Positions 1 to 6,905 of a DNA stretch of 14,358 bases are shown in pieces (the stretch's first letter is position 1; each line of letters begins with the position of its first letter). The notes under the pieces are model-generated. The model was not told the origin of the DNA. It made no database searches and was given only the letters and a program-made list of their open reading frames with translations. The position numbers and the translations under genes were made by a program. Origin of the DNA: Bacteroidota bacterium (lineage in GTDB: Bacteria > Bacteroidota > Bacteroidia > Bacteroidales > UBA10428); the NCBI GenBank assembly GCA_024640925.1, contig JAHEEB010000021.1, forward strand, positions 1 to 14,358, in the 5' to 3' direction.

Positions 1-86
1 AAAAGTTACAATTATTATATATACTTTAAAAAGTTAAAATGGAATAATTCCATTATACCATTGTAAATACTGATAATCTGACCCAT

Positions 87-104
87 ACATGATTTTTATC
101 ATGT
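87..104. repeat. Perfect 7-bp inverted repeat (hairpin)
   Basis: ACATGAT, a four-T loop, then ATCATGT: a perfect 7-bp stem about 150 bp beyond the stop codon of the DJ-1 family gene, which reads leftward. It is AT-rich and has no clear U-run on either side, so a terminator role is weak. It could equally be an operator or a chance palindrome. Confidence 0.4.
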
Positions 105-165
105 TCTTTGTGTAACGGGTAGAATATTGTGAATAAAGGGGATTGAGGGTATTCAACTTCTATAT

Positions 166-183
166 CTATTGATAGATCAATAG
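166..183. repeat. Perfect 8-bp inverted repeat downstream of the DJ-1 gene
   Basis: CTATTGAT and ATCAATAG, separated by AG, form a perfect 8-bp dyad about 70 bp past the end of the leftward DJ-1 family gene. It could stabilise or end that transcript, but there is no U-tract in that direction. The rest of positions 1-251 shows no gene. Confidence 0.4.
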
Positions 184-251
184 AACAGGTTCTTTAATTG
201 TTTGGACCACATCGATGTATCTTATGAACATTGAAGATAGCTTCAGAAGTA

Positions 252-809
252 TTATTTCCAGGTTTGTACAATCATTCCTTTTGCCAGGCTATCAGCTACC
301 TCTGCCCCTTTTAACAACTTCACAATTTCAAGGGAAAAATTAATCGCCGCTCCTGGTCCACGACCAGTTATAATATTGCCTGATTTTAAAACCAAATCGT
401 ATTTAACTTTTGCTCCCGTAAGATTTTGTTCATATCCTGGGTAGCAAACGGCTTCTTTATCTTTTAAAATACCTAAAGCTCCTAGTACCATAGGAGAAGC
501 ACAAATAGCAGCAATGGGTTGGTTCGCTTCAGCTTTTTCCTTTAATATTTCACCAAGTCCTTTATGATCTTTGAGGTTTTTTGATCCGGGCATTCCTCCG
601 GGTAGAATTACTATTGCGGCCTCATTGTAATTAACATCCTCAAAAACTATATCAGTTACCACTTTAATTCCATGAGCGCCTGTAACCTGCAAATTTCCGG
701 TAACAGAAACCATTTCTGTAAGTATATTGGCACGCCTTAATACATCAACAATTGTCAGTGCTTCGATTTCTTCAAAGCCTTCAGCAAAATGTAAAAATGC
801 TTTTTTCAT
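252..809 (-). CDS. DJ-1/PfpI family protein (YajL/DJ-1 subgroup)
   Basis: This 185-residue protein spans the whole single-domain DJ-1/PfpI fold. The nucleophile-elbow motif AAICAS places the conserved reactive cysteine at residue 103. The N-terminal GFEEIEA supplies the acidic partner (Glu16), and the C-terminal GRGPGAAINFSLEIV is the usual DJ-1 signature. DJ-1/YajL relatives are cytoplasmic stress proteins. Glyoxalase III, deglycase and chaperone activities have been proposed for them, so the exact reaction cannot be fixed from sequence. The histidine that follows in human DJ-1 (THP) is replaced here by CYPGYE, as in several bacterial members. It lies 99 bp downstream of recX on the same strand and could be read through from prmC-recX or have its own promoter. 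The ATG at 809 is the only sensible start, because homology begins at once with a beta strand. Confidence 0.9.
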   Translation of the reverse strand: MKKAFLHFAEGFEEIEALTIVDVLRRANILTEMVSVTGNLQVTGAHGIKVVTDIVFEDVNYNEAAIVILPGGMPGSKNLKDHKGLGEILKEKAEANQPIAAICASPMVLGALGILKDKEAVCYPGYEQNLTGAKVKYDLVLKSGNIITGRGPGAAINFSLEIVKLLKGAEVADSLAKGMIVQTWK

Positions 810-3440: not shown

Positions 3441-5786
3441 GTGAATACCCGTAATTTAATAACAATATTGATTTTTGTCGGATCAAGTTTGTCCGTTTTA
3501 TCGCAAAATGCAAAATTATTTGTGAAATCCGGAGAACAATTTCTCAATAACGGAATGTATAAAGCCGCCATTGAAGAATTTGACAAAGCACTATCTGTTG
3601 ATTCTACCGAAGCAAGAGCGATATATCTGAAAGCTACATCTTTTCTGATGCTCAAAGATACCCTTACAGCAGCCTATTATTATAAAAAATCGGCGAAGGC
3701 TGGAAGTGACCCCGATGAATGCTATTTAAAAGCGGCCACTTTTTATTATGATAAGGGCATGATCAAACAAGCGAATGAATGTATCAATGAAGGATTAAAA
3801 GTCCGCCCGAAAAACTTCGATTTTTTACTATTCAAATCAAAAATCTCATACGAAAGAGGAGAATATAACAATGCCTTTTTATTTGCTTTGGAAGCACTTA
3901 AGATTAAGGATATGGCTATAGGGTATTATTATAGTGGAATAAGTGCATATAAGCTTGGAAAAATAGAACAGGCAGAAAAGGACTTTGAAAAAGCAATTGG
4001 ACGCGATGGCAAATTTGCTGATTCGTATCTTGAGCTGGCAAAATTGCAGATTGAACAAAAGAAATTTGATTATGCTATTGACAACTGCAGCATGGTATTG
4101 TTATTAATCAATCCTGAAAATACCGATGCTCTTTTCATACGCAGTCGTGCTTACCGCGCACAGAACTTGCCCGAACAAGCCCTTTCCGATGTATCCAAAG
4201 CCATATCGATTAATAAAAATAACTGGCAGCTTTATATGTGTCGTGCACAATACAATATTGACTATGCACATTATAGCGATGCCATAAATGATTATACTCT
4301 TGCCCTTAACCTGAACGATACATTAACAACAGCTTACAAAAACAGGGCCTATGCCAATGAACAAGTTGGTAATTTAGCCGATGCCCGAAAAGATTACCAG
4401 AAACTTTTAGTTTTTCTTGAAAAGAAAAAAACCACAGAAGTCCAAAAACAATTTGTGCAACAAAAAATTTTCGATTTAGGAAAAGAAGCGAATAAACCTT
4501 CCATAGAAATCAGTCAGCCACAATTGACGGAAAACCAGAGTTTAAAAATAATCGAGGGGAACGATTCAATTAGTATAGAAGGTATTGTTAAGGATGAATC
4601 GGGATTAAAAGCATTTAAAATAAACAATATCCAAATTCAAACAACAAAATCGGAAGATGGGATGAATCGATTTAAGGCGAAATTTCCTGTGAAAAATATC
4701 AGCATGATTACGCTTTCTGCAACCGATGTATATGATAATATTCAAACAGCTTCTTACGCAATTGCAAGAATAGAAATTCAGCCTCCCGTAATTACCTTGA
4801 CAAATCCGGCTGCAGGTCCTGATTATACAATACAATTAGAAACGGGCGATAAAAAAATTTATCTCGAAGGCCAGATACTAGATAAAAGTCTTATAAAAGA
4901 AATAAAAGTTGATGAAGTTAATGCCAGTTATATAACAGACAACTACAATCCAAGGTTTATAGCAACCCTTGATTTGCTTAACCGCCGCGATATTACAATT
5001 TCTGCAACAGATATTTTTGGGAACAAAACCGTTCAGAGTTTCAAATTGGCTCCCAACGGGCAGCTTTTGTCACAAAACAATCCAATGGGAAAAACATGGG
5101 CAATAATTATTGAAAATACAGAATATAAAGATTTTCAAACCCTGGTTAGCCCTGTAAGTGATATGGCTTCCCTTGAAGAAGCACTTGGAAAGTATAAAAT
5201 CAGTAAAATACTTCATAAGAAAAATATGACCAAGCGAGAGATGGAAAAATTTTTTTCCATTGATCTGCGCGATTTGATTGTAAGCAATAATGTTAACTCC
5301 CTATTTATTTGGTATGCCGGACATGGTAAAAATGAAAACAATACAGGATACTGGATTCCTGTGGACGCAAAAATAAATGATGAATACAGTTATTATAATA
5401 TCAATGCTTTAAAAGCTTCGTTTTACAGTTATACTTCTCTAACACATATTCTTGTTGTGAGCGATGCCTGTCAGGCTGGCGAAAACTTTTCTGTTGCTAT
5501 GCGGGGTGATAACAGCCTGGCAAGTTGCAGCGATGCTGCATTGATGAGTCAAAAATCTGCAATGGTGCTAACCTCGTCGTACAAAGAGCCAGCAATGGAT
5601 AATTCGCTGTTTACCCAGACATTCATTCAGGCCCTTAAGAACAATCCGGCCGATTGTATTCCCATAGATGCCATTGCTGAGCAAGTAAGTCTTGTAATGT
5701 ATAAAAACACCTCACAAAAGCCTGTATTCGGACGTATTTCAGGTCTTGAAGACAAGAATGGAACATTCTTTTTTATTGGCAGGTAA
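3441..5786 (+). CDS. Exported TPR / Ig-like / caspase-fold (C14, metacaspase-like) protein
   Basis: A 781-residue protein with a GTG start; no in-frame ATG precedes it, and the GTG gives a convincing signal peptide (hydrophobic residues about 5-20, ending near LSVLSQ). Residues about 24-350 are TPR repeats, for example YKAAIEEFDKALSVDSTEA and GKIEQAEKDFEKAI. Two similar segments at about 353-448 and 449-537 look like Ig-like beta domains, each ending in a ...SATD...GN/DN motif. Residues about 550-781 form a caspase-type protease domain. The histidine motif is YAGHG (His628) and the cysteine motif is SDACQAG (Cys677), which resembles the metacaspase motifs YSGHG and DSCxSG, so cleavage after basic residues is plausible. 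The catalytic dyad is intact. Its substrate and role are unknown; the signal peptide puts the protease outside the cytoplasm. It follows ribD by 71 bp and ends next to the repeat array. Confidence 0.88.
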   Translation: MNTRNLITILIFVGSSLSVLSQNAKLFVKSGEQFLNNGMYKAAIEEFDKALSVDSTEARAIYLKATSFLMLKDTLTAAYYYKKSAKAGSDPDECYLKAATFYYDKGMIKQANECINEGLKVRPKNFDFLLFKSKISYERGEYNNAFLFALEALKIKDMAIGYYYSGISAYKLGKIEQAEKDFEKAIGRDGKFADSYLELAKLQIEQKKFDYAIDNCSMVLLLINPENTDALFIRSRAYRAQNLPEQALSDVSKAISINKNNWQLYMCRAQYNIDYAHYSDAINDYTLALNLNDTLTTAYKNRAYANEQVGNLADARKDYQKLLVFLEKKKTTEVQKQFVQQKIFDLGKEANKPSIEISQPQLTENQSLKIIEGNDSISIEGIVKDESGLKAFKINNIQIQTTKSEDGMNRFKAKFPVKNISMITLSATDVYDNIQTASYAIARIEIQPPVITLTNPAAGPDYTIQLETGDKKIYLEGQILDKSLIKEIKVDEVNASYITDNYNPRFIATLDLLNRRDITISATDIFGNKTVQSFKLAPNGQLLSQNNPMGKTWAIIIENTEYKDFQTLVSPVSDMASLEEALGKYKISKILHKKNMTKREMEKFFSIDLRDLIVSNNVNSLFIWYAGHGKNENNTGYWIPVDAKINDEYSYYNINALKASFYSYTSLTHILVVSDACQAGENFSVAMRGDNSLASCSDAALMSQKSAMVLTSSYKEPAMDNSLFTQTFIQALKNNPADCIPIDAIAEQVSLVMYKNTSQKPVFGRISGLEDKNGTFFFIGR

Positions 5787-5848
5787 AAGGATTTGCCCGA
5801 TACACCTGACGACAGATATTTTTTTCGGATTTTTTCTATAGATTTCTT

Positions 5849-6262
5849 TCCTGCAGGTTGTAAACAATCAATCCAACTATAAATTTTGGTCCTGCAAGTT
5901 GTAAATGACAAATCCAACTATGAATTTCGTTCCTGCAGGTTGTAAATGACCATTCCATTCAAAAATTTTGTTCCTGCAAGTTGTAAATGACAAATTCAAC
6001 GATAGATTTCGTTCCCAACACGATGTAAATAACCAGTTCATTGAAAAGTTTTTCATTTTACATCTTGCAGGGAACAAATCAAACTATGGATTTTGGTCCT
6101 TACACGATGTAAACAGCAAATCAAACTATAGATTTGCTCCATGCAGCTTGCAGGAAACCAATTCAACGAATGAATTTTGCTCTTTCCGACATGTAAATGA
6201 CCAATCCATTATTCGTTTATCTACTTTACAACTTGCAGGGACCAAAATCAACATTTGATTTT
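5849..6262. repeat. Ten-unit 41-43-bp tandem array with orientation-switching core
   Basis: Units start at 5849, 5890, 5931, 5972, 6013, 6054, 6097, 6138, 6181 and 6222. Units 1-4 are exact 41-bp head-to-tail copies with core TCCTGCARGTTGTAAATGAC followed by a spacer like AAATCCAACTATGAATTT. In units 6, 8 and 10 the core is reverse-complemented (TTTACAACTTGCAGGGA type, with CTTGCAGG at 6064, 6147 and 6232), while the spacer after it keeps the forward sense. Units 5, 7 and 9 carry a variant forward core ending ATGTAAA (6023, 6107, 6191), spaced exactly 84 bp apart. The second half is therefore an 84-bp higher-order repeat of one forward variant plus one inverted core. I do not recognise the family. 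Protein-binding array, REP-like palindrome family or transcript-end structure are all possible. Confidence 0.85.
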
Positions 6263-6346
6263 ATATTTTAACGGATGGGAATGACTAATCGGCAAAAGAA
6301 ATTTTTGTTTTAAATGTTGCCAGGAAACAAAATTAAAAGAGAAACA
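6263..6346. repeat. Decayed continuation of the array (one 84-bp pair)
   Basis: The next 84 bp keep the phase of the array. ATGGGAATGACTAATC at 6275 aligns with ATGTAAATGACCAATC at 6191, exactly 84 bp earlier. TTTAAATGTTGCCAGGAAAC at 6309 aligns with the inverted core TTTACAACTTGCAGGGACC of unit 10 (TTTACA at 6225, also 84 bp earlier). These would be units 11 (forward) and 12 (inverted), with several substitutions each. Confidence 0.5.
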
Positions 6347-6449
6347 TGACTTTGCAGAAATAATTCTTTTCAATTCATTTTATGTCACTAATTCTTTACG
6401 CCAAGAAAGACAACTGATTTTTGTTTTTTATAAGGTATTGGAATTTGGA

Positions 6450-6905
6450 TTAAATAAATTTTCTGATTATCATCGAATTTATCCCTTCAGGTACCAAAAC
6501 AGCCTTTACCCCTAATTCTGAAACATCAGCAATATTTCGCATTTCATCATCAAAAAAAATCATATCCTTATAGGCAATTCCGGTTTTTCCAGACAATTCT
6601 TTAAAATGAGTGATTTTTGATCCCGGATAGATTTCTCTGCAGATAAAAAATTCATCTATTTCAAACAAAGTGAGAAGCGCTTGTGCCCAGGACGGCTCGT
6701 GAGTGCGGGAAGCAATTGCAAGTTTATAACCCTTATCCTTCAATCCTTTCAGAATATCTTTAACCTCGGGGAACAAAACAATATTGTTACCTACTGAATC
6801 AACAACATGTGAATTTACTTTATTGTAGGGTGGAAAGGTGTGATCACACCATGTCCCAGCTGCATCCCAGAGTGTAAAATCCAGGTCAAAGACAATTAGT
6901 TTCAT
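6450..6905 (-). CDS. MDP-1-like HAD-superfamily phosphatase
   Basis: This 151-residue protein has the compact, uncapped HAD fold. Motif I is FDLDFTLW (nucleophile Asp7, acid/base Asp9), motif II is IASRT (Ser66), a motif III lysine is probably Lys97 (GSKITHF), and motif IV is FFDDEMRNI (Asp119, Asp120). The FDLDxTLW start, followed by a short region with DHTFPPY, and the ASRTHEPSWAQALL stretch are typical of the magnesium-dependent phosphatase-1 (MDP-1) family. Mammalian members dephosphorylate protein tyrosine and sugar-phosphate (fructosamine) substrates in vitro. The bacterial substrate is unknown. It starts 15 bp after the dxs stop codon on the same strand, so it is probably co-transcribed with dxs. 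That proximity alone does not show a role in isoprenoid synthesis. Confidence 0.85.
   Translation of the reverse strand: MKLIVFDLDFTLWDAAGTWCDHTFPPYNKVNSHVVDSVGNNIVLFPEVKDILKGLKDKGYKLAIASRTHEPSWAQALLTLFEIDEFFICREIYPGSKITHFKELSGKTGIAYKDMIFFDDEMRNIADVSELGVKAVLVPEGINSMIIRKFI

Follow-up and report, generated by a model that had tools for sequence, protein, structure and literature searches.

A composite repeat of 41-bp units with rearranged core arms, carried at four places in the genome of a Bacteroidota bacterium

The window analysed here is a stretch of 14,358 nucleotides from the genome of a Bacteroidota bacterium. It contains two genes with convergent ends, one encoding a protein rich in TPR repeats (ORF 3441-5786, plus strand) and one encoding a HAD-type phosphatase (ORF 6450-6905, minus strand), and the space between them holds a tandem array of about 420 bp (~5847-6262, copy A). 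An initial reading of the sequence alone, made without database searches, had described four head-to-tail 41-bp units between two convergent gene ends. Both observations are borne out: units 1-4 occupy 5847-6010, and six more follow at a pitch of 41-42 bp to ~6262, giving ten units in total. The same reading had called the product of the neighbouring gene at 3441-5786 exported and caspase-like; this protein consists mainly of TPR repeats, its caspase match (NF047832) scores 41.5 against a cut-off of 140 bits, and no link with the array was seen.

Tandem Repeats Finder reports the region twice, as 5836-6015 with a period of 41 (score 206) and as 5838-6052 with a period of 82 (score 260), the doubled period being due to the presence of two spacer types. 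Each core is built from two arms, L (GTTCCTGCA) and R (TGTAAATGAC), whose reverse complements are denoted L' and R'. Spacer S1 (AAATCCAACTATRRATTT type) follows units 1, 2, 4, 6, 7, 8 and 10, while S2 follows units 3 and 5 and, weakly, unit 9. The units of copy A are listed in Table 1, together with the further places in the genome that are considered below. The array as a whole folds far more stably than shuffled sequences (z of -8.3 for the plus and -7.3 for the minus strand, with 0 of 100 shuffles reaching the value on either), which inverted repeats alone can explain.

Table 1. Units of the composite repeat in copy A (window coordinates) and places of the further copies (coordinates of the array query)
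Feature	Position	Strand	Remarks
Copy A, composite repeat, ten units at 41-42 bp pitch	5847..6262	+	
Units 1-4, L-R cores head to tail	5847..6010	+	starts 5847, 5888, 5929, 5970; spacers S1, S1, S2, S1; best template forward in all four (A1-A4)
Unit 5, R kept (9/10), left arm altered	6011..6052	+	spacer S2
Unit 6, core R'-L', reverse-complemented	6053..6094	-	spacer S1, still plus strand
Unit 7, inner core R'-R (TTACA-CGA-TGTAA), outer GTTCC-like L bases kept	6095..6135	+	spacer S1; near tie with forward template
Unit 8, L-L' core, self-complementary	6136..6177	.	spacer S1
Unit 9, R kept (10/10)	6178..6219	+	left arm and spacer diverged
Unit 10, core R'-L'	6220..6262	-	spacer direction split between templates
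Copy B, contig C393	query 9-431		85%; match ends 5 bases from contig end
Copy C, contig C351	query 11-296		80%
Copy D, contig C1100	query 185-422		76%; match ends 4 bases from contig end

Several familiar identities were considered for the array and rejected. Open reading frames cross it, yet units of 41 and 42 bp shift any reading frame, and the array is therefore regarded as non-coding rather than as a coding repeat. A CRISPR does not fit, because the spacers belong to two recurring types and the cores vary. Rfam gave two matches to microRNA models, which at 27.6 and 24.2 bits stay below the gathering scores of 144 and 160, and a consensus scan detected no terminator at the array.

The source genome comprises 5.67 Mb in 1131 contigs and is 81.9% complete. 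A BLAST search of the rest of this genome with the array matched three further places, so copies exist elsewhere, and the composite stands at four places in full or in large part. In a sample of 29 sources from the same genome (140 kb), the array occurred only at these known places. Copy A alone has both array ends inside its contig, while B and D lie at contig ends. No constant gene context was found among the copies, with copy C located between two ORFs on the same strand and B and D beside other genes. Similarity beyond the array ends is not significant either, as it was reached by 24 (A/B), 18 (A/D), 117 (B/D) and 30 (left side, A/C) of 200 shuffles.

The copies are largely collinear. Mutual best matches at the same position link A3 with B3, A5 with B5, A6 with B6, A7 with B7, B8 with D8, B9 with D9 and B10 with D10. 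The plain units 1, 2 and 4 pair interchangeably with one another, and for C5, C6, C7, D6 and A9 the best match in another copy lies at a different position. Unit 5 agrees with the forward core in 18 of 22 bases in copy C and in 15 of 22 in copies A and B.

The sequence-only reading had further proposed that, after the first four units, every second core is reverse-complemented while the spacers keep one direction. Five templates were used to score each unit together with its flanks, namely the forward unit, the wholly reversed unit, a unit with only its core reversed, and the L-L' and R'-R forms. Among 32 unit rows, all but D9 had a best template score above the maximum of 100 shuffles, and B9 passed that maximum by only 2. 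For unit 6, the template with reversed core and forward spacer is the best of the five in 4/4 copies. In copy A, both spacers next to this unit score 34 in forward and 18 in reversed orientation, and a profile of the forward unit finds the core on the minus strand (6057-6071) and the following spacer on the plus strand (6074-6094). Inversion of the whole unit, which that reading had named as an argument against a mobile or switching element, is thus rejected for unit 6 in all four copies. It is not rejected for unit 10, where the whole-unit and core-only templates score 53 and 45 in copy A, 42 and 41 in B, and 48 and 57 in D. The selective inversion of a core between unchanged spacers consequently holds for unit 6, whereas unit 10 is split between copies.

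A regular inversion of every second core is not borne out. For unit 8, L-L' is the best template in all three copies that have this unit. Unit 7 is a near tie between the forward and R'-R templates (73 versus 72 in A, 69 versus 76 in B, 84 versus 83 in C, 71 versus 70 in D), and its R' arm agrees in 6-8 of 10 bases, at least 7 being expected by chance in about 5%. In units 5 and 9, only R is clear. The suggestion in the sequence-only reading of an assembly from two related elements came near the mark, since the cores combine two arm modules in several ways.

The places outside the window strengthen the idea that the array is mobile, yet no mover is shown. Several dispersed non-coding copies in one genome, as in MITEs, are present here at four places (two at contig ends). 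The first and last cores face each other, and the best long inverted arms are 36 nt with 75% complementarity; these start inside unit 1 and not at the left array end. No terminal repeat shared among the copies was found, no target-site duplication was seen by eye in the flanks of copy A, the sole copy with both ends, and no insertion sequence with similar ends occurred among the BLAST matches of the array in its own genome. The genome contains a RAYT gene on contig C130 (L049 1426-1968; 94.2 against a cut-off of 80 bits), the ORF of which runs to the contig end. A palindrome upstream of this gene (CCGCAAGTCTGTGACTTGTGG), which is absent from the array, is also present at five places on contig C134, where both orientations are represented. 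On contig C838 (L048 1880-2420), a gene for an IS200-like transposase adjoins arrays of other palindromes (GGCACTACGTGCC, GCAACATAGTTGC, GGGGCATAGCCCC), several of them with ATCTTTGTAG-like flanks. A BLAST comparison of the array with the RAYT and IS200-like contigs gave no match at E <= 10 (39 candidates scored, the downstream flank of the RAYT gene lying off the contig), and a link to a RAYT, as it characterizes BIMEs and REPs, was thus not found.

Other repeats were noticed in the course of this analysis. Near the middle of a core, copy C contains a 38-bp palindromic repeat (CAACAACGCTGGCAGG...CCAGGTTG; L022 ~2378-2417), which matches 22 other places in the same genome, 20 of which were aligned. 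The segment after this palindrome (L022 2438-2558) is repeated on contigs C790, C915 and C252 (82-89%). The intergenic regions of this genome look like mosaics of repeats. A hairpin repeat with AACCCGG...CCGGGTT ends is present at 8 places, including L119 and L131, and contains CCTGCAGGTTGTAAGCAAT, which agrees with unit 1 of the array in 18 of 19 bases at a BLAST E-value of 1.1 and provides a lead only. This hairpin repeat may be related to the array, or the likeness may be due to chance.

Beyond its own genome, the array was searched for at several levels. With at most the best 11 candidates scored per genome, the full array matched only its own genome at E <= 0.001 among 60 genomes, including its own, 8 of the same genus and 14 of the same family. 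Records of plasmids (72,556) and phages (50,697) gave no array match, and the exact core is absent from IMG/VR. The exact 19-base core occurs once on each of four GTDB contigs, two of them from Pseudomonas, and none of these carries a 41-bp array. A search across the class (395 genomes including its own) scored the best two candidates per genome and recovered just two of the four known copies. In 27 other genomes, it gave matches of 20-45 bases (E of 5e-5 to 0.01); a tandem array of ~41 bp was absent at the 14 loci examined among them. A profile of the unit found weak matches in 9 others of 23 family genomes including its own (E of 2e-4 to 0.08), and the five loci examined among these contained no ~41-bp array. 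Tandem Repeats Finder detected no 41-bp array in 40 stretches (461 kb) from two genomes of the same genus. Of 29 other genomes, two have a relative of the neighbouring phosphatase gene at an E-value better than 1e-10 (58 and 54% identity), and no array was seen at either locus. The best reading of these data is a lineage-restricted element, found among the genomes searched in its own genome only. Sister strains may carry the array, and the search sets may omit the records nearest to this genome.

With moderate confidence, we regard the array as a non-coding, dispersed intergenic element of the MITE or BIME kind, the imperfectly palindromic cores of which probably had their arms rewritten by copying from inverted repeats, mostly before the element spread and partly afterwards. 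As a non-autonomous element resembling MITEs or BIMEs, the entire composite would be copied in one piece with the help of an enzyme supplied in trans. Flipped and self-complementary cores would arise when one arm is recopied from an inverted partner, either because the polymerase switches template at a quasi-palindrome or because oppositely oriented units undergo conversion. According to the available parts of two published accounts, template switching between short, imperfect inverted repeats homogenises their arms and can invert the sequence between them (PMC8604942, PMC8794818). Recopying of this kind would alter the arms only and leave pitch and spacers in place, and template switching predicts L-L' and R'-R cores at an unchanged pitch.

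The collinear best matches between the copies imply that much of the arm pattern is older than dispersal. Most of the rewriting would therefore precede the spread of the copies, and some of it, at unit 10, would follow. When unit 10 is compared with the reverse complements of the other units, the best score in copy A falls on unit 2 (41, the next being unit 4 with 36) and in copy B on unit 7 (36, the next being unit 5 with 31). Copy A has three occurrences of TTTTGGTCC or its complement (forward in units 2 and 7, reversed in unit 10), and copies B, C and D have none. As far as these bases and the differing match of unit 5 between the copies can indicate, the few events after dispersal point to exchange between oppositely oriented units, which could reflect conversion just as well as template switching. 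In support of recopying, folding of single cores of copy B as DNA gave -7.5 kcal/mol for L-L' (reached by 0 of 300 shuffles) and -4.2 for R'-R (2 of 300), compared with -1.8 kcal/mol for an L-R core (51 of 300). The inverted core R'-L' gave 0.0 kcal/mol and forms no hairpin alone, which counts against arm recopying. Also against this explanation stand the short repeats flanking the cores (~6-7 bp by eye), the small number of sites behind the post-dispersal events, the near tie of R'-R in unit 7, the units that match off-position and the negative results for a mover, a target-site duplication and a shared terminal repeat. No host function was seen, and we think that the element is selfish or neutral.

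A possible, though clearly less probable, origin is a BIME-like ancestor with alternating cores (L-R, S2, R'-L', S1), from which deletions between units and amplification of L-R units through unequal crossing-over would have produced the array without any rewriting of arms in place. The order of modules agrees with this proposal in several respects: R precedes S2 in units 3, 5 and 9, R'-L' follows S2 after units 5 and 9, and S1 follows L' at units 6 and 8. The near identity of units 2-4 in copy C indicates that direct amplification happens, and alternating palindromes are described for BIMEs in the available part of PMC2817692. Deletion accounts for unit 8, where L-L' lies between S1 and S1, but not for unit 7, because there S1 stands on both sides and outer L bases precede R'. 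The copy-specific inverted matches of unit 10 are likewise left unexplained by such an ancestor.

We consider it rather improbable that the array is a live arm-shuffling element, in which inverted arms would be exchanged during replication and the copies would drift through four arm states while the spacers hold the register; if this is true, bacterial template switching would have a natural recorder in the array. Still more doubtful is an array of binding sites for a host protein, in which 41 bp, about four helix turns, would place the cores on one face of the DNA and a putative dimer would tolerate either orientation. The regular pitch of 41-42 bp and the partly palindromic cores are consistent with such a function, and 8 promoter-like matches were found in 5700-6460 compared with 3.0 +/- 1.8 in shuffles, all 8 of them minus-strand and 5 or more inside the array, an excess that repetition itself can cause. 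The lack of a match in the 59 other genomes, the different gene context of the copies and the loss of an arm in units 5 and 9 argue against it. Least credible is the inversion of cores by site-specific recombination as a phase-variable switch, as the sequence-only reading had suggested: the inverted core between unchanged spacers in unit 6 of 4/4 copies would agree with it, but the copies share the same state at unit 6 (R'-L', 4/4) and unit 8 (L-L', 3/3), self-complementary cores are not a simple product of inversion, and none of the 9 proteins scanned, a subset of the genes on the four array-bearing contigs, is a recombinase.

If the preferred explanation of a dispersed element with rewritten arms is right, flipped cores in a tandem array require no recombinase, and the array offers a compact natural case in which rewriting templated by inverted repeats can be read at fixed positions across copies. 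A literature search for bacterial cases that combine inverted units with template switching revealed no relevant report, which does not prove absence. For the correction of quasi-palindromes by template switching, the available parts of PMC8604942 and PMC8794818 describe, as proposed here, that one arm is turned into the reverse complement of its counterpart and that the sequence between the arms can invert. Their cases are single hairpins, while here the outcome would be distributed among the units of an array present at several places.

Judged by their descriptions, the closest known elements appear to be MITE464/PgRS of Porphyromonas gingivalis and the BIMEs. BIMEs and REPs, which are associated with RAYT transposases, resemble the array in their extragenic palindromic units, inverted orientations, recurring spacers and mosaic structure, as far as the available parts of PMC2817692 and PMC6006769 describe them. 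The array differs from them in occupying four places instead of being highly abundant and in lacking strict alternation, since units 1-4 run head to tail and inverted or self-complementary cores occur at units 6, 7, 8 and 10. By eye, neither strand of the 41-bp unit consensus shows the GTAG/GTGG head of these elements. The BrickBuilt MITE of P. gingivalis shares with the array an internal minisatellite, an intergenic location and the restriction to one species group, but its repeats are 23 nt long without spacers, and its leader and tail are non-repetitive (PMC4596501, available part). MITE464/PgRS, likened here by description and not by sequence, is also non-coding and dispersed, has a similar length and a Bacteroidota host, and carries 41-nt tandem direct repeats with repetitive flanks, according to the same part of that source, where inverted cores are not mentioned. 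Its 12-base terminal repeat, as given there, has no match in the array with up to 3 mismatches. If our explanation is right, the array would add one more lineage-restricted family beside the P. gingivalis elements with 41-nt tandem repeats.
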